A DNA stretch of 39,965 nucleotides from Akkermansiaceae bacterium (GTDB lineage: Bacteria; Verrucomicrobiota; Verrucomicrobiia; Verrucomicrobiales; Akkermansiaceae), in assembly GCA_029253285.1 (NCBI GenBank), contig JAQWZU010000071.1, positions 1-39,965 of the forward strand, in the 5' to 3' direction. The position numbers and the translations under genes are program-made. A model generated the notes under the pieces. It worked only from the letters and a program-made list of their open reading frames with translations. It was not told the origin of the DNA and did no database searches. Positions 24,600-34,031 of the stretch are shown here, in pieces. Positions within the stretch are counted from its first letter, which is position 1. Every line of letters begins with the position of its first letter.

Positions 24600-24736
24600 C
24601 ACAAATTAAATTTGCAGAGATCTTCCTGATGGGTTTCTCCGCCCCCACGTTGACGATCATTTATGAAATGTTGGTAAATGGACTCGGCGCTCCACATCCC
24701 CAACCCCCATCCCTTGCGAAGTTGGCATCAGATAGT

Positions 24737-26287
24737 ATGATCAGCCGGAAACAATTTGGTATTTTGAACAAACGCATCATCATCATTGGCGCTGGCCCCG
24801 GCGGGCTCACCGCCGGCCTGCTTCTCGCCAACCGAGGTTACAAAGTCACTATCCTCGAAAAGGACAAAGTGGCCGGAGGTCGAAATGCCCCCATCCAGGA
24901 CGGTCCGTATTGCCACGATACCGGCCCCACTTTTCTCCACCAAAAATTCACCCTCGACGAAATCTTCGCCGAAACCGGGCGCAAACCCGAAGACTACATG
25001 GACTTCGTCAAGCTCGACCCCATGACCCGCTTGAGCTGGGGAGATCTCTCGCTCGAAACCAGCAGCAACCGCGAAAAAATGGCGGCCAACATCGAAAAAT
25101 CGTTTCCCGGAGAGGCGGAAAACTTTCTCCGCTTCATGGATGATCACGCATCCAAGCTCAAAACGATCTTCCCCTTCCTCCTCAAACCCTACACTCGTCT
25201 CTCCTCTTACCTCGACAAAAATCTCCTCAAAGCCCTCCCCTACGTCGCCACAACCAAATCGGTCATGGACGTCCTCTCTGACTACTTTCAGGACGACCGT
25301 TTGAAACTCGCTTTCACCTTTCAGGCCAAATACCTCGGTATGTCTCCCTGGAATTGCCCCGCCCTTTTTAGTATCCTTTCCTATATCGAATACGAACATG
25401 GCATCTTCCACGTGCAGGGTGGTCTCTCCAAAATTTCCGAAGGCATGGCCAAAGTCGTCGCTGAGGAAGGCGGCGAAATTCGCTACGAGGCCGAAGTCGA
25501 AGAGATCCTCTACCAAGGTAAAAATGCGGCCAAGGTCCGCCTCACCAACGGCGAAGAACTCACCTGCGATCAACTTATCGTCAATGCCGACTACGCCCAC
25601 GCCCGCACCACCATTTTTGGAAAAAAGAAGCAAACAAACGAGGACCTCAGAAAGAAGAAATACTCCTGCTCCACCTTCATGCTCTACCTTGGTCTTGATA
25701 CCCTCTACGAAGACCAACCCCATCACCACGTTATCTTTGCCGACGACTACCACCAAAATTTGGCAGACATTCAGGGGGAGAAAATCATCTCTGAAGACAT
25801 GTCCTTCTACATTCGCAATTCCAGCGTCACCGACCCGACCGTCGCTCCCAAGGGCCATTCGCAGCTCTACGTTCTTGTTCCGACAATCAATACCCGCCAC
25901 GGACATGACTGGCAGGGAACCCAAGAAGAGTATGCCGAAAAAATCATCGATAAGATGATCGCGTCCACCGGCATGAAGGATCTCCGTGACCACATTGTGA
26001 CTCGGAAAATCATCACTCCAACCGGCTGGGAAAATGCCAACATCTTCCTGGGAGCCACCTTCAATCTGGCTCACACCCTGTCTCAAATGCTCCACTTCCG
26101 ACCTCAAAACCGTCTCAAGGGATTCAACAACCTCTACCTCGTTGGAGGTGGAACTCATCCCGGTAGCGGACTTCCCACCATCTACGAAAGCGCTCGGATC
26201 ACCACTAATCTTATCGACGAGGTCTACGACCAGAAACGGATTCCGGTAGACTTTGCCTCGAGCATCCTGACAAAAGCAGCCAATTAA
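24737..26287 (+). CDS. CrtN/CrtI-type carotenoid flavoenzyme (first copy)
   Basis: The protein (516 residues from the ATG at 24737) is a FAD-dependent oxidoreductase of the phytoene/diapophytoene desaturase family. The dinucleotide fold IIIIGAGPGGLTAGLLLANR lies at residues 14-33 with EK at 41-42 and AGGRN at 46-50. The C-terminal FAD motif is YLVGGGTHPGSGLPTIYESA. The frame extends upstream to 24629, but the extra 36 residues look non-coding and lie where a promoter is expected (TTGACG at 24650-24655). In this cluster it should desaturate dehydrosqualene or squalene (CrtN role) or oxidise a terminal methyl (CrtP role). I favour desaturase from the THPGSG motif, with moderate confidence. No SD is seen. 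Confidence 0.85.
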   Translation: MISRKQFGILNKRIIIIGAGPGGLTAGLLLANRGYKVTILEKDKVAGGRNAPIQDGPYCHDTGPTFLHQKFTLDEIFAETGRKPEDYMDFVKLDPMTRLSWGDLSLETSSNREKMAANIEKSFPGEAENFLRFMDDHASKLKTIFPFLLKPYTRLSSYLDKNLLKALPYVATTKSVMDVLSDYFQDDRLKLAFTFQAKYLGMSPWNCPALFSILSYIEYEHGIFHVQGGLSKISEGMAKVVAEEGGEIRYEAEVEEILYQGKNAAKVRLTNGEELTCDQLIVNADYAHARTTIFGKKKQTNEDLRKKKYSCSTFMLYLGLDTLYEDQPHHHVIFADDYHQNLADIQGEKIISEDMSFYIRNSSVTDPTVAPKGHSQLYVLVPTINTRHGHDWQGTQEEYAEKIIDKMIASTGMKDLRDHIVTRKIITPTGWENANIFLGATFNLAHTLSQMLHFRPQNRLKGFNNLYLVGGGTHPGSGLPTIYESARITTNLIDEVYDQKRIPVDFASSILTKAAN

Positions 26288-26306
26288 TTCACGTCATGAA
26301 AGCCCA

Positions 26307-27659
26307 TCAACGCATGAACTTCTTTATCCAGCGAAAGGACTTCTCATAAGGAGGCATCATCTCCATCAAATCTTTCCCCACAAAATATCTCTTCGTGACC
26401 GACTTCTCATAGCTCAAGGCCTCAACTCCAAATCGGCCGCGATACCGGCCAGACCCACTTTGACCCACCCCCCCCAGCGGAAGCTGCAATTGCGAAAACT
26501 GCTTCATGGTATCATTCACACAGAGCGAACCCGAAGGCAGCGAACCCGTCACCTTTTCCACAAAATCCTCCTCCGTCGAAAAACAATAAACCGCCAGCGG
26601 ACTCTCCAATTTGCCCAAGCTCTCTAACAGATCTTCTTCACTCCCAAAAGTCATCACCGGCAACACCGGACCAAAGACCTCTTCCTTCATCGCAGGATGA
26701 TTCCAATCCACGCCCGCAATCAAACGAGGAGCCAAATAGCGCCTCGCCAAATCGTCTTCGCCAAATTGTTCCACCTCTCCGACACACAAACCCTGCAACC
26801 GTTCCACATGCCGCTCCGAAATGATCCCCGCCATCTCCGCGTCCCAGGAAACTTCCTCCAGCACGTCCCGGAGACATTGGCGAAATTCCTCCTCCACCCG
26901 GGCTTCGACGAGGACAAAGTCAGGCGCAAAACAAGTCTGCCCCGCATTCATCAATTTCCCCGCGACCAAGCGCCGTGCGCTCTTTACCAAGTCTGCACCC
27001 GGCCCCACCACGCAGGGACATTTCCCACCCAACTCCAACAAGGAGGGCGTGAGCGTTCTCCCCGCGATCTCCGCCACCTCACGACCCACCGCCGTGCTGC
27101 CCGTGAAAAAGATGAAGTCGAATTTCTCCCCCAACAAACCCTTCGCCACTTCCACTCCGCCGGTCACAACAGCCGCGCCCTGTCCCGCAAAAACCTCTTC
27201 AATAATTTCCGAAATCAATCGCTCACTCTGCGAGGCCAGCTCGGAAGGCTTCAGCACCACGGTGTTCCCCGCTGCAATCGCCGCGAGCAAAGGGCTCAGA
27301 GACAACTGAAAGGGATAGTTCCAGGGAGCCATAATCAGAACCACTCCGAAAGGATGTCGCTCGATCCAACTCCGACAGGGCCAAAAGTAAAAAGGCGAAC
27401 TCACCCGCTTTTTCTTCAGCCAACCCTTCAGCTTCTTTCGCACCAGCCGAATTTCTTCCAAGAGGAAATGATACTCCGCCAAAAAAGCCTCCATCCCCGG
27501 CTTCCCCAAATCAGCCGCCAGACACTCCAAAATCTCCTCCCTCTTCCCCATGAGCACCGCTTCCAATCGCGACAGCTTCTCGCGACGCCATTCCAGATCG
27601 CGCGTCGCCCCGGACCGGAAGAATTCCCGCTGCCCTTCGACAATCTCCTGCAAGCTCAT
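26307..27659 (-). CDS. aldH: Aldehyde dehydrogenase, class 3-like, probably carotenoid aldehyde oxidation
   Basis: The 450-residue product belongs to the short class 3-like aldehyde dehydrogenases. It has APWNYPFQLSLSPLLAAIAA with the catalytic Asn (N114), FFTGSTAVGREVA, the general-base Glu (E209 in LLELGGK) and nucleophile C243 (NAGQTCFAPD). The C-terminus is hydrophobic and basic (PPYEKSFRWIKKFMR), which in this class often binds membranes. The ATG at 27659 is preferred over a GTG at 27668. In staphyloxanthin synthesis, AldH oxidises diaponeurosporenal to the carboxylic acid. Placement between two carotenoid flavoenzymes, on the opposite strand, argues for the same role here. Confidence 0.85.
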   Translation of the reverse strand: MSLQEIVEGQREFFRSGATRDLEWRREKLSRLEAVLMGKREEILECLAADLGKPGMEAFLAEYHFLLEEIRLVRKKLKGWLKKKRVSSPFYFWPCRSWIERHPFGVVLIMAPWNYPFQLSLSPLLAAIAAGNTVVLKPSELASQSERLISEIIEEVFAGQGAAVVTGGVEVAKGLLGEKFDFIFFTGSTAVGREVAEIAGRTLTPSLLELGGKCPCVVGPGADLVKSARRLVAGKLMNAGQTCFAPDFVLVEARVEEEFRQCLRDVLEEVSWDAEMAGIISERHVERLQGLCVGEVEQFGEDDLARRYLAPRLIAGVDWNHPAMKEEVFGPVLPVMTFGSEEDLLESLGKLESPLAVYCFSTEEDFVEKVTGSLPSGSLCVNDTMKQFSQLQLPLGGVGQSGSGRYRGRFGVEALSYEKSVTKRYFVGKDLMEMMPPYEKSFRWIKKFMR

Positions 27660-27729
27660 TTCTCTCACTAGACGAAGCTAGTTTCCACCCACACATTCAC
27701 AAGGTCAGAGTCACCAGAATATTTCCATC
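27660..27729. promoter_or_regulatory. Divergent control region between aldH and the second crt flavoenzyme
   Basis: Only 70 bases separate the two divergent starts. They include the dyad ACTAG-N6-CTAGT (27667-27682), a possible shared operator. No clear -35/-10 pair stands out. Confidence 0.35.
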
Positions 27730-29229
27730 ATGAAATCCCAGAAAGTAGCCATCATCGGTTCCGGCCTCGGCGGACTCTCCGCCGCCATCTCTCTTCGCGC
27801 CGCCGGATACGAAGTCGAGGTCTTCGAGAAAAACGAACGCATCGGAGGCAAACTCAACATCAAGGAACTCAACGGCTACACCTTCGACCTCGGCCCCTCC
27901 ATCTTTACCCTGCCGCAATTCTTCGAAAACCTCTTCCAACGCGCTGGCAGGAAGATGGCCGACTACGTCCAACTCGATGCCGTCACTCCCCAATGGCGCA
28001 ATTTTTTCGAAGGGAAACCCACCATCGATCTCTATCAAGAAGACGACCTTATGCGAGCCGAACTCGCCAAGCTCCCCGGTGACCTCAATTCCCACTGGCG
28101 CGAGTTTCAAGATTTCCTGACCTACGCTCGCGGGCAATACGACATCATCGATAGCGGCTACTTCGACAAAGGCCTCGACTCACTTTGGGAGTTCTTCAAA
28201 CACTACAACCTGCAACTCTTCACCGGCGCCATCGACTATAAAAACTCGATGTCCCAATCGATCCACGAACGCCTCAGCGACCCCCAGATGCGCCTCATCT
28301 TCGAATACTTCATCAAGTATGTCGGCTCCTCCGCGCTCGACTCCCCCGGCTACATGAACCTCATGCCTATCATCCAGTTCGACTACGGCCTCTGGTATGT
28401 TCGTGGCGGCATGTACAACCTCGCCGTCGGCCTCGGCAAGTTGATGGAGGAAATGAACATCACGGTGCACCTCGGCGCAGATGTCCAGGCCATCGAAAAA
28501 TCTGGTAAGTCCGTCACCGGTATCCGCCTCGCCGACGGCACCGTCCACTCCGCCGACATCATCGTCAGCAACATGGAAGTGATCCCGGCCTACAAAAATC
28601 TCCTCAACGAACCGCCCACTTTTACCCGCAAGCTCGAGAAGTTTGCCCCAAGCTGCTCCGGCATCGTTCTCCACCTCGGCACCGACTGCGTCTTCCCCCA
28701 GCTCGCCCACCACAATTTCTTCTACTCCGAGAACCAGCACAAACACTTCCAGACCGTCTTCCATAAAAAGCAACTCCCCGACGACCCCACCCTCTACGTC
28801 GTCGCTCCAACCCGTACCGATCCCGACAAGGCACCCGAGGGATGCGACAACATCAAAATCCTTCCTCACATCCCCCCGCTCGAAGACAACTCCGGCATCA
28901 CTCACGAGGATTACGTTGCCCTTAAAGACCGCTGCATCGACAAGATGGAACGCTGCGGTCTCACCGGATTGCGCGACTCCATCGTGACCGAAGATTTCCT
29001 CACTCCCATCGACATCGAGCGCATGTATCGCTCGAACCAAGGGTCGATTTACGGCGTCGTCACCGACTGGAAAAAGAACTACGGCTTCAAAGCTCCCAAG
29101 ACCTCCACCAAGTACCGCAACCTCTACTTCACCGGCGGCAGCACCAACCCCGGCGGCGGTATGCCCATGGTGATTCTCTCCGGGCAAAGTTGCGCCGACC
29201 GCATTATCAAGCGTCACCCGGTCTCCTGA
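27730..29229 (+). CDS. CrtP/CrtN-type carotenoid flavoenzyme (second copy)
   Basis: This is a second member of the carotenoid desaturase/oxygenase family, 499 residues long. It has the FAD fold VAIIGSGLGGLSAAISLRAA (6-25), EKNERIGGKLN and GYTFDLGPSIFTLPQF. The C-terminal motif LYFTGGSTNPGGGMPMVILS resembles the HPGGGxPxVxLSG form of CrtP/CrtNb oxygenases, so terminal oxidation to an aldehyde is my preferred role. The alternative is desaturation, with the first copy as oxygenase. The gene starts the run crtP-crtQ-crtO, with seven bases to the glycosyltransferase, and is divergent from aldH. Its codons show strong preference for C at third positions, which gives long false frames on the other strand. 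Confidence 0.85.
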   Translation: MKSQKVAIIGSGLGGLSAAISLRAAGYEVEVFEKNERIGGKLNIKELNGYTFDLGPSIFTLPQFFENLFQRAGRKMADYVQLDAVTPQWRNFFEGKPTIDLYQEDDLMRAELAKLPGDLNSHWREFQDFLTYARGQYDIIDSGYFDKGLDSLWEFFKHYNLQLFTGAIDYKNSMSQSIHERLSDPQMRLIFEYFIKYVGSSALDSPGYMNLMPIIQFDYGLWYVRGGMYNLAVGLGKLMEEMNITVHLGADVQAIEKSGKSVTGIRLADGTVHSADIIVSNMEVIPAYKNLLNEPPTFTRKLEKFAPSCSGIVLHLGTDCVFPQLAHHNFFYSENQHKHFQTVFHKKQLPDDPTLYVVAPTRTDPDKAPEGCDNIKILPHIPPLEDNSGITHEDYVALKDRCIDKMERCGLTGLRDSIVTEDFLTPIDIERMYRSNQGSIYGVVTDWKKNYGFKAPKTSTKYRNLYFTGGSTNPGGGMPMVILSGQSCADRIIKRHPVS

Positions 29230-29236
29230 CGAACCG

Positions 29237-30343
29237 ATGAACGCCTTTCTGCTCATTTTCCCGGGAGTCGCCATCCTCTGCGCTCCCGCATTGTGGCTCA
29301 TCCTCGGCCGCCCCAGGTGGTTAAGACCCTCACCGAAAAAATCAACGGATGCTCCCTCCATCTCCATCATCATCCCAGCCCGCAACGAAGAGGAAAACAT
29401 CCGGCACCTCCTCGCATCCCTCCAGACTCAAGACACGTCCCCGCTGGAAATTATCGTCGTCAACGACGGTTCCAAAGACCGCACCGCCCAAGTCTCGCAG
29501 GAGCTTGGCGCCGCCGTTCTCGAAGCCCAGCCCCTCCCCGGGGGATGGCACGGCAAGCCCTGGGCCTGTCATCAGGGAGCCGAACGAGCCAAGGGGGAAT
29601 GGCTTCTCTTTCTCGACGCCGACACCATCCTACAAGAGGGCGCCCTCACCGCCCTCCAACAACTCACCTCGGCTGACCCCAAGGTCTACTCCCTCTGTCC
29701 TTACCACACCATCGCGCGACCCTACGAAGAATTCTCCGCCTTCTTCAATGTCCTCATGCTCGCCGGCAGCAACGCCTTCACCCCCATCCGGGACAGCCCG
29801 CCTACCCTCTTCGGGCAATCCCTTCTCCTCAGCAAAGCTCATTACGAACAAGTCGGCACCCATGCCGTCGTGCGCGATGAAGTCCTCGAAAACTTCCACC
29901 TCAGCAGACACTTCCAAGACCTTAAAATCCCCACTCGCGCCCTTCTCGGAAAAGGCCTCATTCACATGCGCATGTTCCCCCACGGCCCGGGCGAACTTTG
30001 GGCCAGCTGGCAAAAGGGCTTCACCAATGGCGCGGCCCAAAGCCACCCCCGTGCCCTTCTCTTCTCCACAATCTGGCTTAGCGGACTCATGTTCACCCTG
30101 ACCTCCCTCGCCCTCCTGCTCACCCCATTCACAAACTCCACCTACATTACCCTCACCGGAGTAGCCTATCTTCTCGGCGTGATCCAATGCCGTTACGCCT
30201 TTCGCCTCGCCGGCAACTTCTCCTTCCTCAACGCCCTCCTCTTTCCCCTCGCCCTCCTCTTCTATCAAACCCTCTTCTTCACCGCCCTGATCAAAAAAAA
30301 GCGCGGCCTCAAAAGCGAATGGAAAGGTCGCTCGCTCGACTGA
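29237..30343 (+). CDS. crtQ: CrtQ-type glycosyltransferase (family 2), carotenoic acid glycosylation
   Basis: The GT2 catalytic domain (residues about 40-260) has ISIIIPARNEEENIRHLLAS, EIIVVNDGSKDRTAQ and the donor-metal motif LLFLDADT. A hydrophobic N-terminal helix (3-23) and C-terminal helices (about 278-350) place it in the membrane, as in CrtQ. The segment GWHGKPWACHQGAERAKGEW is typical of carotenoid-acid glycosyltransferases. In Staphylococcus, CrtQ forms the glucosyl ester of diaponeurosporenoate. Sugar identity cannot be told from sequence. In Rubritalea the known pigment carries xylose. It lies between the second flavoenzyme and crtO with near-touching genes. Confidence 0.85.
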   Translation: MNAFLLIFPGVAILCAPALWLILGRPRWLRPSPKKSTDAPSISIIIPARNEEENIRHLLASLQTQDTSPLEIIVVNDGSKDRTAQVSQELGAAVLEAQPLPGGWHGKPWACHQGAERAKGEWLLFLDADTILQEGALTALQQLTSADPKVYSLCPYHTIARPYEEFSAFFNVLMLAGSNAFTPIRDSPPTLFGQSLLLSKAHYEQVGTHAVVRDEVLENFHLSRHFQDLKIPTRALLGKGLIHMRMFPHGPGELWASWQKGFTNGAAQSHPRALLFSTIWLSGLMFTLTSLALLLTPFTNSTYITLTGVAYLLGVIQCRYAFRLAGNFSFLNALLFPLALLFYQTLFFTALIKKKRGLKSEWKGRSLD

Positions 30344-30344
30344 C

Positions 30345-30818
30345 ATGATCGCAGAACTCTCCAACACCCAGATCATCGTCGCCAACTGCCTCGGCATCCC
30401 CTTGGCCCACTTCGCCATCTCCTGGCTCTGCGAACAAATTCCCCTCCAAGTGTTTCACCGACCCCTCCCCCCGTCCAGCACTCCCAATCCCATCTTCAAG
30501 CGCCTCTTTTTGATCCGTCACTGGAAACAACTCCTCCCCGACGCCGCTCCTTGGTTCAGCGGATTTCCCAAAGCCCATCTGACCTCTCTCGACGAAGGCT
30601 ACCTCAGGCGATTCATCGCCGAAACCCGCCGCGGAGAACTCGCCCACTGGCTCCAGTGGCTCGTCATATCAAGCTTCATTATTTGGAACCCCTTCCCCGC
30701 CAATCTGATCATTCTCAGCTACGCCGCCCTCCTCAATTTTCCCTGCCTCCTCAATCTCCGTCACACCCGACAACGCCTGATCGCATTGCTCCTTCGACGG
30801 ATCCGGACAAGCAATTGA
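30345..30818 (+). CDS. crtO: CrtO-type glycosyl-carotenoate acyltransferase
   Basis: The 157-residue protein matches the small membrane acyltransferase CrtO of staphyloxanthin synthesis. It has RHWKQLLPDAAPWFSGFPKA, DEGYLRRFIAETRRGELAHW, IIWNPFPANLIILSYAALLN and a closing LRHTRQRLIALLL. Hydrophobic segments occur at about residues 8-28, 100-117 and 118-138. CrtO adds a fatty acyl group to the sugar of the carotenoid ester. This family is rather specific to acylated C30 carotenoids, so it is the strongest evidence for the final product. The ATG follows the crtQ stop after one base (TGACATG), so translation is probably coupled. Confidence 0.82.
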   Translation: MIAELSNTQIIVANCLGIPLAHFAISWLCEQIPLQVFHRPLPPSSTPNPIFKRLFLIRHWKQLLPDAAPWFSGFPKAHLTSLDEGYLRRFIAETRRGELAHWLQWLVISSFIIWNPFPANLIILSYAALLNFPCLLNLRHTRQRLIALLLRRIRTSN

Positions 30819-30828: not shown

Positions 30829-30840
30829 TCCCCTGCCTCT

Positions 30841-32352
30841 TTAATTTTTAGGAGGCTTGGTTTTCTTGTGGGCCTTGTATTCGTCCCAACTCAACTCACC
30901 GTCCTTATTGGCATCCGCTTCCGGGTTTTTCTTGAAATAAGTATCCTTCCAGGCCGCGGCATTTTCTTTTCCGGCCTTCGTCTTTTTTGACCTCTTCTTC
31001 CACGCTTCCGTATGAATCAAACCCAGAAAGACCGGATCAATGTTGTCCTTGTTCCAATCATTCCAGAGCCCTTTGAGTTTCGCTAATTCTTCCGACGACT
31101 GATCAAGAATGTTGTCCTTCTCCCCAAGGTCCTTCACAAGATTGTGCACCGAGGTCACTCCGGTTTTATTGAAGGAAACAAATTTAAAGTCACCGCTTCG
31201 AGCCGCCGTCATTCCAGAGTCAAACTTGCGTAAAAAGATCCCCTCGTGGGGAGGGTTGGCATTCTCACCTTTTAAATACGGGCTGAGATTCACGCCATCA
31301 AGAGGACGTTCCCTGGCAATACTGGCGCCGCTCAATTCCGCAATGGTCGCGCAGATGTCGAGCGAAGTCACCGGATGATCATAGCTCTTTCCTTTTGGGA
31401 ATTCGCCCGGCCACTGAACCGCGAAGGGAACCCGAAAGCCACCTTCCCAGGCATCACCTTTGTTCCCGCGGAGCGGGCCGTTGTCAGAACCGTTCTTGGT
31501 CGTGGGGCCGCCATTATCTGAAAGAAAAAAGACGATGGTATTTTTCTCCACTTTCTTCTCACGAAGAGTCGCGAGAACACGTCCCACTCCATCGTCAACC
31601 GCGCTCACCATGGCGGCGTAGGTTTTGCGCTTCTTGTCCTGAATATCCGGAAAGCGGGCGAGATATTCCGGAGTCGCCTGCAATGGACCATGCGGCGCAT
31701 TGTAGGAAAGGAATAGGAAGAAGGGCTTCTCGTGATTCCGCTCGATGAAACCGACGGCCTCGTCCGAAAAGTCATCGGTGAGATATTTCCTGGGAGAGAC
31801 TGGTTCATGATTCTTCATAATCCAGGTGCGATAACTTTCTGATTCCGTCTCAACCGCGTAGCTGTCTTTGAGCTTGAGCTCTTCCGGCATGTATTGATGC
31901 CCTCCTCCGAGATGCCCGTAAAATTCCTGAAATCCCCGTTTCATCGGATGGTGTTTTTTGGTCGCTCCGAGATGCCATTTCCCAATTACCCCGGAATGAT
32001 AACCCACCTTGCCCAAAGTATCAGCGATGGTCGACTCGCTAAAAGGAAGCCCCATGTTCTCATCATTCGGTTGATACTGCGGGTTGCGCTCGAAACCAAA
32101 GCGCTGCCCATAACGTCCCGTCATGAAAGCGGCCCGACTGGGACCACACACCGAATAGGCCACATAACCCGAGGTGAATTTCACCCCGTTTTTAGCGATC
32201 GAATTAATGTGCGGTGTGGGGATGTCCTTGCAGCCATTGAAACCCACATCAGCATAGCCCATGTCATCCGTCATGATGACGATTAGATTCGGCTTTTCGG
32301 CAGCCCCGGCCACCAACTGACAGAGGAATAAGAGAGAAAAAATTTTCGTCAT
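30841..32352 (-). CDS. Secreted Cys-type sulfatase with C-terminal EF-hand tail
   Basis: From the ATG at 32352 the product has 503 residues. A signal peptide (about 1-18, MTKIFSLLFLCQLVAGAAEK) precedes the sulfatase domain. Metal ligands are in IVIMTDDMGYADVG. The formylglycine site is C69-G-P-S-R in YSVCGPSRAAFMTGR. GKWHLG, YNAPHGP and LSDNGG follow as expected. Cys-type sulfatases need FGE or anSME for maturation. The C-terminal 30 residues hold an EF-hand-like loop DANKDGELSWDEY followed by KAHKK. The upstream sulfatase gene ends two bases before this ATG. Substrates are probably sulfated glycans. Confidence 0.93.
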   Translation of the reverse strand: MTKIFSLLFLCQLVAGAAEKPNLIVIMTDDMGYADVGFNGCKDIPTPHINSIAKNGVKFTSGYVAYSVCGPSRAAFMTGRYGQRFGFERNPQYQPNDENMGLPFSESTIADTLGKVGYHSGVIGKWHLGATKKHHPMKRGFQEFYGHLGGGHQYMPEELKLKDSYAVETESESYRTWIMKNHEPVSPRKYLTDDFSDEAVGFIERNHEKPFFLFLSYNAPHGPLQATPEYLARFPDIQDKKRKTYAAMVSAVDDGVGRVLATLREKKVEKNTIVFFLSDNGGPTTKNGSDNGPLRGNKGDAWEGGFRVPFAVQWPGEFPKGKSYDHPVTSLDICATIAELSGASIARERPLDGVNLSPYLKGENANPPHEGIFLRKFDSGMTAARSGDFKFVSFNKTGVTSVHNLVKDLGEKDNILDQSSEELAKLKGLWNDWNKDNIDPVFLGLIHTEAWKKRSKKTKAGKENAAAWKDTYFKKNPEADANKDGELSWDEYKAHKKTKPPKN

Positions 32353-32354
32353 GA

Positions 32355-34031
32355 TTAGTTCTTCGCTTTGAGTTTCTTGTGGGCCTTGTGTTCCGCCCAA
32401 GTCAGCTTGCCATCTTTATTGGTGTCCGCACCTGGATGCCTCTTAAAATACCGGTCCTTCCATTCGTCGGCTGTCACTTCCGGTTTGGGAATTGATTTGG
32501 GAATCCGCTTTAACAAGCTCTCACGATAGGAGAACAGCGTCGCTTCGTGCTTTGAATCCAAGGCCAAATTCGTCCACTCATGAGGATCCTCGACGACATG
32601 GTAGAGTTCTTCTTTTCCGTTCTCGTATCGAATATAGCGCCATTCTTTATCGCGCAGAGCGTAGTTCTGCTCCGCAGGGTCGTAGTAATCAGCCCACTTA
32701 TACATCGCGGTAAGAACGGCAGCCGGACCAGTCCACCCGCCATCAGGCTTGGCAAGCAGAGGCTTGAGGGAATGCCCGTCCAGCGGTCGGCCTTTGGCAT
32801 TCTTGCCAGTCTCTTTGGGAAGGTCACATAGATCAACCAAGGTAGGGTAAAGGTCAATCAAGCTCACCGGCTGCCCGCAAGTTCCGGGCTTGGTCAATCC
32901 CGGTGCGGAGATAACGAGAGGCACGCGGGTGCTTTCCTGCCAGAGTGAATTCTTATAGAGGTAATCTTTCTCGCCCATGCCCCACCCATGATCGGAGGTC
33001 AAAATCACAATGGTGTTCTCCTTCAAAGCGCTCTCCTCAATGGTATCAAGAATCTCGCCGATCAGATCGTCCACTGAAGCGACCGAGGCGAGGTAGGCTT
33101 GAATAAATTTCTTCAAGGCGAGTTCCCGGTCACCTCCATAGGATGCAATGAGCTGGTCGTAGATTTTGGAACCCCGGTCACCACTTCGGTCGTCTTCTTT
33201 CGAGCCAACCGTTCGCTTAAAGGTATCCTCGACATCGCCCCGCTTGATCACCGGAAGCTTGATTGACTCCAGCGGGAAGCGATCGAAGTATTTCTGTGGC
33301 ACAATCAAGGGTGTGTGCGGACGAATAAATCCCACGCCCATCAGGAAGGGCTTTTTGGACTGAGCAAGCGACTTGAGATTCTCAACCGCCCATTGGCCAT
33401 TTTTTTCATCTGCAGTGAGATCACGATCCTCTTCGGAATGGTATTTGAAATCTTCCAGCTTCCGCCAGGTCCCGCTCTTCCAGCTGAAGGGAGCTTTCAC
33501 TTTTTTCAGAGGTCCAAAGGAGCCATCGATCGATTCGAAATCATCGCGGAAGGGAGAAGGAACATCCGGATGCGCTACATTTTTCCCATCACGATGCGCC
33601 AGCGGGCTGTAATCTGCATCGTTCCCGTATTCGACCCATTCCTTCCGCTCCCCACTGTGCATGATCTTACCCGTTCCCAGAGTGTGATATCCATTGGCCC
33701 GAAAGTGATCCATGAAGGTGCGCGAATTTTTAAAAACCGCATTGGTTTGCCATTTTTCAAATCCGAAGAGCTTCGAGGTATGAGGATAGAGACCGAAAAC
33801 CATACTGGCCCGCGAGGGATTGCAGATCGGGATATTACAATGAGCCTGGGTGAATGACACCCCGCGATCCATCAGCCGCTTCATGTTGGGCGTCTTGGCC
33901 TGAGGGTGGCCGCCAAGGGTTTCGACGTAGTCATTGAGGTCATCGCAGATGATGAGGACGACATTCGGACGATCCGCACCACGAACAAGGAGCGGAAGAA
34001 AGAAAAGCGGAAGGAGGACTTTGGAAAACAT
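32355..34031 (-). CDS. Secreted Cys-type sulfatase, iduronate-2-sulfatase-like, EF-hand tail
   Basis: The 558-residue product has a signal peptide (about 1-18) and a sulfatase domain with VVLIICDDLNDYV, the formylglycine site C70-N-P-S-R, GTGKIMHSG, GVGFIRPHTPLIVP and LTSDHGWGMGEKDYLYKNSL. The order and spacing resemble iduronate-2-sulfatase-type enzymes. The tail carries a second EF-hand-like loop DTNKDGKLTWAEH and KAHKK, closely matching the next gene. The ATG at 34031 follows a 301-base gap after the PQQ/malectin gene. It and the following sulfatase are two bases apart. Confidence 0.92.
   Translation of the reverse strand: MFSKVLLPLFFLPLLVRGADRPNVVLIICDDLNDYVETLGGHPQAKTPNMKRLMDRGVSFTQAHCNIPICNPSRASMVFGLYPHTSKLFGFEKWQTNAVFKNSRTFMDHFRANGYHTLGTGKIMHSGERKEWVEYGNDADYSPLAHRDGKNVAHPDVPSPFRDDFESIDGSFGPLKKVKAPFSWKSGTWRKLEDFKYHSEEDRDLTADEKNGQWAVENLKSLAQSKKPFLMGVGFIRPHTPLIVPQKYFDRFPLESIKLPVIKRGDVEDTFKRTVGSKEDDRSGDRGSKIYDQLIASYGGDRELALKKFIQAYLASVASVDDLIGEILDTIEESALKENTIVILTSDHGWGMGEKDYLYKNSLWQESTRVPLVISAPGLTKPGTCGQPVSLIDLYPTLVDLCDLPKETGKNAKGRPLDGHSLKPLLAKPDGGWTGPAAVLTAMYKWADYYDPAEQNYALRDKEWRYIRYENGKEELYHVVEDPHEWTNLALDSKHEATLFSYRESLLKRIPKSIPKPEVTADEWKDRYFKRHPGADTNKDGKLTWAEHKAHKKLKAKN

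Follow-up and report, generated by a model that had tools for sequence, protein, structure and literature searches.

A candidate acyl-glycosyl C30 carotenoid gene set without crtM in an Akkermansiaceae bacterium

The five-gene set and its enzyme families

The window analysed here is a whole stretch of 39,965 nucleotides of contig JAQWZU010000071.1 from a marine Akkermansiaceae bacterium (phylum Verrucomicrobiota; assembly GCA_029253285.1), whose genome assembly comprises 224 contigs and is 96.7% complete. A preliminary description had placed five adjacent carotenoid-type genes at positions 24737 to 30818 and likened them to the staphyloxanthin genes of Staphylococcus without crtM. All five genes were present there with matching profiles, and the cluster holds no gene of the SQS_PSY family. 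The profile E-values of the five genes range from about 1e-20 to 1e-132, which rules out chance matches. The features are as follows.

24737-26287, plus strand: Ox1, predicted CrtN-type C30 desaturase of the squalene-route clade (TIGR02734, 441.9 bits)
26307-27668, minus strand: ALDH, predicted aldehyde dehydrogenase of the class-3/fatty-aldehyde type (PF00171, 256.8 bits)
27669-27729, no strand: divergent ALDH-Ox2 intergenic region, 61 bp by the gene coordinates, probable promoter region
27730-29229, plus strand: Ox2, predicted CrtP-type terminal-methyl oxidase (TIGR02734, 352.8 bits)
29237-30343, plus strand: predicted GT2 glycosyltransferase, CrtQ counterpart (PF00535, 87.1 bits)
30345-30818, plus strand: predicted CrtO-family acyltransferase (PF18927, 74.3 bits)
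30835-30856, plus strand: terminator-like hairpin 3' of CrtO (7-pair stem, T-rich tail; weak)

The open frame of Ox1 begins at 24629, and 24737 was taken as the start because it is nearest to the flavin adenine dinucleotide motif. ALDH converges on Ox1 with a gap of 19 bp and diverges from Ox2 over 61 bp, and Ox2, GT2, and CrtO follow each other on the same strand with gaps of 7 bp and 1 bp. Judging from this spacing, the genes other than Ox1 may form two transcription units. A promoter-like match at 27696-27723 is weak, with 5 promoter-like sites in the scan versus 1.8 expected, and the hairpin at 30835-30856 is weak because 14 terminator-like sites were found versus 7.7 expected.

The two flavoenzymes were placed with a careful tree of 35 rows, and the groups compared by the approximately unbiased (AU) test were named after a first quick tree had been seen. 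Ox1 and its paralogue Ox3, a second CrtN encoded outside the cluster (G000:C94:4593-6116, locus L030) and 63% identical to Ox1, form a clade with the alphaproteobacterial OxA proteins (support 100/99), and both staphylococcal CrtN and C40 CrtI fall outside this clade. The AU test rejected trees joining the Ox1 group to staphylococcal CrtN (p 0.0002) or to C40 CrtI (p 0.0019). Ox1 is 41.7% identical to Azospirillum OxA and 28-29% identical to staphylococcal CrtN. The OxA genes of Microvirga and Palleronia adjoin genes of the HpnC/D clade and a gene for an HpnE-type flavoprotein. Ox2 lies in a clade with staphylococcal CrtP (100/99), with alphaproteobacterial OxB further out. It is 45% identical to the CrtP of Staphylococcus equorum plasmid pC2014-2, our staphylococcal reference, for which crt letters were assigned from gene order and product names. 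The two flavoenzymes are thus of the CrtN and CrtP types, as had been proposed, but Ox1 is of the squalene-route type and not a member of the staphylococcal CrtN clade. With Ox1 grouping with OxA and Ox2 with staphylococcal CrtP, the cluster is, as judged from these sequences, a mosaic of a putative squalene-route desaturase and a staphylococcal-type oxidase and acyltransferase. Two same-genus genomes (G376 and G400) each have two further CrtI-family matches besides CrtP.

TIGR02734 (crtI_fam, cut-off 238.1 bits) takes in C40 and C30 enzymes alike, and its matches would also fit a C40 carotenoid cluster with acyclic xanthophyll tailoring. However, Ox1 lies outside the CrtI clade, a common clade with C40 CrtI being rejected as above, and the CrtB clade holds neither of the genome's two SQS_PSY proteins. 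We therefore rejected the C40 reading, which is highly improbable. Relatives from the same order that do have a C40-type cluster keep it separate, with a crtI-like gene and a third SQS_PSY gene of the CrtB clade (G354, G327, and G346; loci L201, L202, and L203). The L201 cluster also holds a lycopene cyclase and a beta-carotene dioxygenase by Pfam, and a rhodopsin-like frame recognised by eye.

The remaining three enzymes are putative counterparts of the staphylococcal tailoring enzymes. ALDH contains the motifs GQTC and LELGG, has class-3 and fatty aldehyde dehydrogenases among its best solved relatives, is 28% identical to the ALDH of the S. equorum plasmid, and would be expected to turn a carotenoid aldehyde into the acid. 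The GT2 enzyme is 29% identical to staphylococcal CrtQ at 163 bits, compared to 91-104 bits for the glycosyltransferases of alphaproteobacterial clusters, and scores higher still against a Cytobacillus glycosyltransferase (209 bits). The preliminary description had named failure of a profile match as a reason to doubt CrtO, but the protein scores 74.3 bits against PF18927 ('Glycosyl-4,4'-diaponeurosporenoate acyltransferase'), whose cut-off is 27.3 bits. There are 14 invariant columns among 28 aligned CrtO sequences, and the alignment shows WK, PD, F..E..R....H, and N.PC in common with the staphylococcal proteins. The AlphaFold2 model of CrtO is confident, with a predicted local distance difference test score of 92.3; Foldseek gave no match to it at E <= 0.001, and a structure search returned just generic helical bundles (Z <= 6.5).

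Conservation of the set among relatives

The related loci were the best 80 of at least 552 encoded relatives, ranked by CrtP similarity, so that the counts describe near relatives. The main synteny count was restricted to the 41 loci whose flanking sequence reached 9 kb or more on each side, leaving out the other 39. ALDH, GT2, and CrtO were each present in 37 of these 41 loci and CrtN in 36; an SQS_PSY gene occurred in one, and neither HpnE nor a lysophospholipid acyltransferase was found in any of them. Among these near relatives, a cluster lacking crtM is thus the norm and not a local loss. When the requirement was relaxed to 6 kb or more upstream and 3 kb or more downstream (49 loci), ALDH, GT2, and CrtO were each found in 44, CrtN in 42, and SQS_PSY in 1. 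Taking all 80 loci, including those on truncated contigs, and a distance of 6.5 kb, the counts were 71 (ALDH), 68 (GT2), 60 (CrtO), 61 (CrtN), and 1 (SQS_PSY).

The nearest loci are L069, from 'Verrucomicrobiaceae bacterium TMED86' (99% over Ox2), and L070 (98%). The set was also present in Rubritalea marina (L084), Rubritalea profundi (L095), Roseibacillus persicicus (L094), and Luteolibacter marinus (L096), and beyond these in Fibrobacterota, Bdellovibrionota, Acidobacteriota, and a Kapaibacterium (L138, L139, L141, and L144). Both R. marina and R. profundi have the counterparts of crtN, ALDH, crtP, crtQ, and crtO, the crtP of R. profundi being called as two overlapping frames. A CrtO match was found in 13 of 288 genomes of the phylum sample, our own included. 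Ten of the 13 regions around CrtO matches outside the window (L034-L042 and L045) carry the whole Ox/ALDH/Ox2/GT2/CrtO set, and the other three (L043, L044, and L046) showed no match to any protein of the set.

Other genes were seen near the set. R. marina has a second CrtN-CrtP pair (L088:7460-11518). Ahead of it lies a MerR regulator that contains B12-binding domains and that we take to be CarH-like, a hint of light control. Proteins that are tetratricopeptide repeat (TPR)-like, SRPBCC-like, or photolyases lie near the cluster in relatives (e.g., L071:2285-3363 and L075:9064-10563), with homologues in 15 loci (two pairs being from the same contig), 9 loci, and 12 loci, respectively. One of the photolyase matches is on contig C135 of our own genome, and the TPR and SRPBCC Pfam matches are below cut-off. 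In the window, a profile search found a pabB-like gene upstream of the cluster, and two adjacent sulfatase-like frames were recognised by eye downstream on the minus strand (30841-34031). Sulfatase-family frames lie near the set in 9 of the 80 related loci. The verrucomicrobial group of this bacterium is rich in sulfatases, and these frames are therefore not counted as part of the carotenoid set.

Precursor supply in the genome and across the order

The preliminary description had proposed that the precursor is supplied by genes elsewhere, and this holds at the level of gene location: the genome encodes two SQS_PSY proteins, on contigs C73 and C124. The C73 protein (1068-1910), whose gene adjoins a signal-peptidase-like gene named by eye, is placed by the tree (98/98) as an orthologue of HpnD. 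The C124 protein, of 319 amino acids and adjoining a hemW-like gene also named by eye, belongs to a second SQS_PSY group outside HpnC, HpnD, CrtM, and CrtB. The support of this group is 96/92 for its 8 rows and 99/98 when L036, a very long row that joins it, is included, and both Asp motifs are kept in all 8 rows. The L036 sequence is a very divergent SQS_PSY of genome G068 whose gene adjoins the cluster there (L036:13156-13962).

Neither of the genome's two SQS_PSY proteins fell in the HpnC clade or the CrtM clade, although with an assembly of 224 contigs that is 96.7% complete the absence of CrtM could still be a missed gene. The genome thus contains HpnD and a second SQS_PSY protein, and HpnC, CrtM, and an HpnE over cut-off were not found among the enzymes that had been suggested as suppliers. 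Two candidates were rejected. One is an amine oxidase (C135:73401-74609; L033:7378-8622) considered as HpnE, which scores 81.6 of the required 283 bits and adjoins photolyase-like frames. Its similarity to HpnE is weak but full-length, and at E <= 1e-12 matches occurred in only 5 of 13 genomes, one of them being the true HpnE of G228. The other, a match on contig C18 considered as a hopene cyclase, scored 23.8 bits, and 19.7 bits with PF13243, below cut-off.

We examined whether the feed is squalene or dehydrosqualene, both of which had been suggested. In a dehydrosqualene route, the HpnD-like protein or the second SQS_PSY protein would act as a diapophytoene synthase (CrtM), as in Staphylococcus. 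In favour of this route, CrtM, CrtB, HpnC, and HpnD share homology, a CrtM-named entry (PDB 8is6, 120.5 bits) is the top match among solved structures for the HpnD-like protein, and no HpnE, the enzyme that completes squalene synthesis in the HpnCDE route, was found over cut-off in our own genome or in the 151 order genomes described below. However, the HpnD-like protein lies in the HpnD clade, apart from staphylococcal CrtM, and Ox1 lies outside the staphylococcal CrtN clade, as the AU test indicated. SQS_PSY genes also occur in small genomes of the same family (group g2) with no CrtN/CrtP match at E <= 1e-60, and Rubritalea squalenifaciens produces squalene, as stated in PMC3967232. We consider the dehydrosqualene route unlikely. 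Squalene is the favoured feed, given the HpnD orthologue, the second SQS_PSY protein, and no CrtM-clade enzyme found. In one genome, hpnD is tied to the pathway by gene order: locus L092, on the same contig as L045 of G237, has crtP, crtQ, and crtO, a signal-peptidase-like gene, and then an HpnD-like gene, all on one strand.

The supply was also surveyed in a sample of 151 genomes of the order Verrucomicrobiales. All 151 had an SQS_PSY match (two in 134 genomes, three in 10, and one in 7), and in all eight order genomes checked the copies were typed as one HpnD-like and one SQS-like. CrtP matched strongly (> 800 bits) in 42 of these genomes, and a further 8 had weaker matches (386-426 bits). 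With SQS_PSY matches in every genome versus strong CrtP matches in 42, the synthases look like a trait of the whole order, and the carotenoid cluster looks like an accessory that would draw on a pre-existing supply. HpnE was found in none of the 151 genomes at E <= 1e-40, and none of up to 10 candidates scored per genome passed the cut-off, so squalene synthesis in the order looks HpnE-free. Likewise, no hopene cyclase passed the cut-off in the 151 genomes; four weaker matches (E <= 1e-30) were seen. None of the 14 control genomes passed this cut-off either, which leaves the absence of hopene cyclase less well controlled than that of HpnE. The retention of SQS_PSY in all 151 genomes, with HpnE and hopene cyclase over cut-off in none, is a testable gap. 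A squalene synthase inhibitor raises the bile sensitivity of Akkermansia muciniphila according to PMC7671984, where terpene-cyclase-family genes are named as hopanoid genes. This naming is unsupported by our order-wide hopene cyclase profile search.

Proposed pathway and its relation to known systems

The likely product of the cluster is a squalene-derived C30 (4,4'-diapo) carotenoic acid esterified with an acylated sugar. HpnD (C73) would convert farnesyl diphosphate to presqualene diphosphate, and the second SQS_PSY protein (C124) would probably take part in the next step, which gives squalene. Squalene would be repeatedly desaturated by Ox1, with Ox3 (C94), to a diapolycopene or diaponeurosporene chromophore, one or both terminal methyl groups of which Ox2 would oxidise to the aldehyde. 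ALDH would form the acid, the GT2 enzyme would form the sugar ester, and CrtO would acylate the sugar. The analysis established the families, clades, and conserved linkage of the five genes; every substrate and the order of the reactions are inferred, as are the identities of the sugar and acyl chain and the oxidation of one or both ends. The preference for this pathway arises because Ox1 and Ox3 group with OxA, whose genes in Microvirga and Palleronia adjoin HpnC/D-clade genes, and because an HpnD orthologue is encoded in the genome and the set is conserved in relatives including R. marina and R. profundi. The interpretation first offered, a cluster for an acylated glycosyl C30 pigment, is supported to this extent, as the flavoenzymes did not group with C40 CrtI and CrtO matched its profile.

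Several observations weigh against the squalene-fed pathway. The HpnD-like protein of C73 is under the curated cut-off (237.6 versus 278.6 bits), as is also an HpnD of G228 that is fused to a full HpnE (254.4 bits). No HpnE over cut-off was found in our own genome, where all 29 of 29 candidates were scored and the best reached 81.6 of 283 bits; the positive control, G228, was over cut-off. Just one of the 41 fully flanked loci has a cluster-linked SQS_PSY gene, and the identity of the glycosyltransferase to CrtQ is only 29%. Finally, genomes G032 and G139 (L035 and L034), which belong to other classes and are 96-98% complete, carry the set with no PF00494 match, and a query with the second SQS_PSY family gave nothing at E <= 0.1 in G032, G139, and G274.

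A sub-question within the squalene-fed pathway is whether the product is a staphyloxanthin-like ester of a mono-acid (diaponeurosporenoic acid) and not a Rubritalea-like diacid ester. CrtP and CrtO are staphylococcal in kind, GT2 scores CrtQ above the glycosyltransferases of alphaproteobacterial clusters, and staphylococci make the mono-acid. However, the genome holds a second CrtN, Ox3, which we counted against a mono-acid, and derivatives of diapolycopenedioic acid are made by Rubritalea, the nearest organism with a known pigment (according to PMC3967232), as well as by squalene-route Methylobacterium (according to PMC10448405). A mono-acid ester is thus somewhat doubtful.

The proposed squalene-fed cluster shares features with several known systems. 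It resembles the staphyloxanthin set (crtOPQMN and aldH) in its CrtP clade, CrtO family, GT2 counterpart of CrtQ, and aldehyde dehydrogenase, but it differs in having no crtM, a desaturase from another clade, a different gene order, and an opposite-strand ALDH. Planctopirus limnophila, of a sister phylum, likewise makes C30 carotenoids from squalene, but with an HpnCDE supply, whereas HpnE was not found here. Its squalene route was reportedly described by Santana-Molina et al. in 2022, a study cited in PMC10448405 and PMC12078418. The squalene-route C30 clusters of Alphaproteobacteria (Methylobacterium, as presented in PMC10448405, Microvirga, and Palleronia) have the same CrtN-type clade, paired CrtN/CrtP-like enzymes, and a GT2, and those of Microvirga and Palleronia also have an ALDH. 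In contrast to the present cluster, they carry a lysophospholipid acyltransferase instead of CrtO (none in our 41 fully flanked loci) and HpnCDE-type sets, of which just HpnD was found here. PMC10448405 gives squalene as the confirmed C30 precursor in Methylobacterium extorquens PA1 and P. limnophila, and describes in M. extorquens a 2-O-acyl-glucosyl ester of diapolycopenedioic acid made from squalene with a different acyltransferase. According to PMC10745290, Methylomonas likewise has C30 diacid genes but neither crtM nor hpnCDE, and its one SQS_PSY gene adjoins a hopene cyclase. The parts of the present cluster and the squalene route were already known, and their combination is a variant.

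In some relatives, the operon extends beyond crtO. In 10 of the 80 loci, crtO is followed by an MMPL transporter gene and a LolA gene of the same orientation, at a distance of at most 0.6 kb in nine of them and of 3.3 kb, with genes between, in L119. The Pfam check was made on L109 (13165-16305); the other coordinates are L107:6197-9276 and, for L122, L126, L129, L130, and L132, 13123-16218. A 4-bp overlap between crtO and the MMPL frame, as called mechanically, is present in L107, L122, L126, L129, L130, and L132. A crtN gene lies 3' of the LolA gene in L105, L107, L122, L126, L129, and L130, with broken frames in L122 and L129. For aryl polyene clusters, an RND (resistance-nodulation-division) transporter and Lol-like proteins are proposed in PMC8253772 to place the polyene lipid in the outer membrane. 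By analogy, the position of MMPL and LolA directly 3' of crtO suggests that the carotenoid glycolipid would go to the outer membrane, at least in the species bearing this pair.

We tentatively propose a wider scheme, which we regard as possible rather than probable. Verrucomicrobiales would have a two-protein squalene route, consisting of HpnD and an uncharacterised SQS_PSY family, without HpnC or HpnE and not serving hopanoids. In about 28-33% of the sampled genomes this pool would be tapped by the accessory acyl-glycosyl C30 cluster, and in some relatives, several of them named Roseibacillus, the glycolipid would be handed to the outer membrane by MMPL/LolA of the same operon. We did not find the combination of CrtN (squalene type), ALDH, CrtP, GT2, and CrtO with an HpnE-free supply described in the open-access literature.

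To our knowledge, Rubritalea squalenifaciens is the closest organism with known carotenoid chemistry. It is a related bacterium that produces squalene together with 2-acyl-xylosyl esters of diapolycopenedioic acid (xylosyl esters A-C), as reported in PMC3967232. The same five genes occur in R. marina and R. profundi, although the structures come from R. squalenifaciens and the genes were read in the other two species. The Rubritalea C30 pigments have been known since 2007-2008, and no gene assignment for them was found in the open-access PMC literature; the set described here provides a gene-level candidate. More broadly, a squalene-type desaturase and staphylococcal-type tailoring enzymes travel as one set across several phyla.

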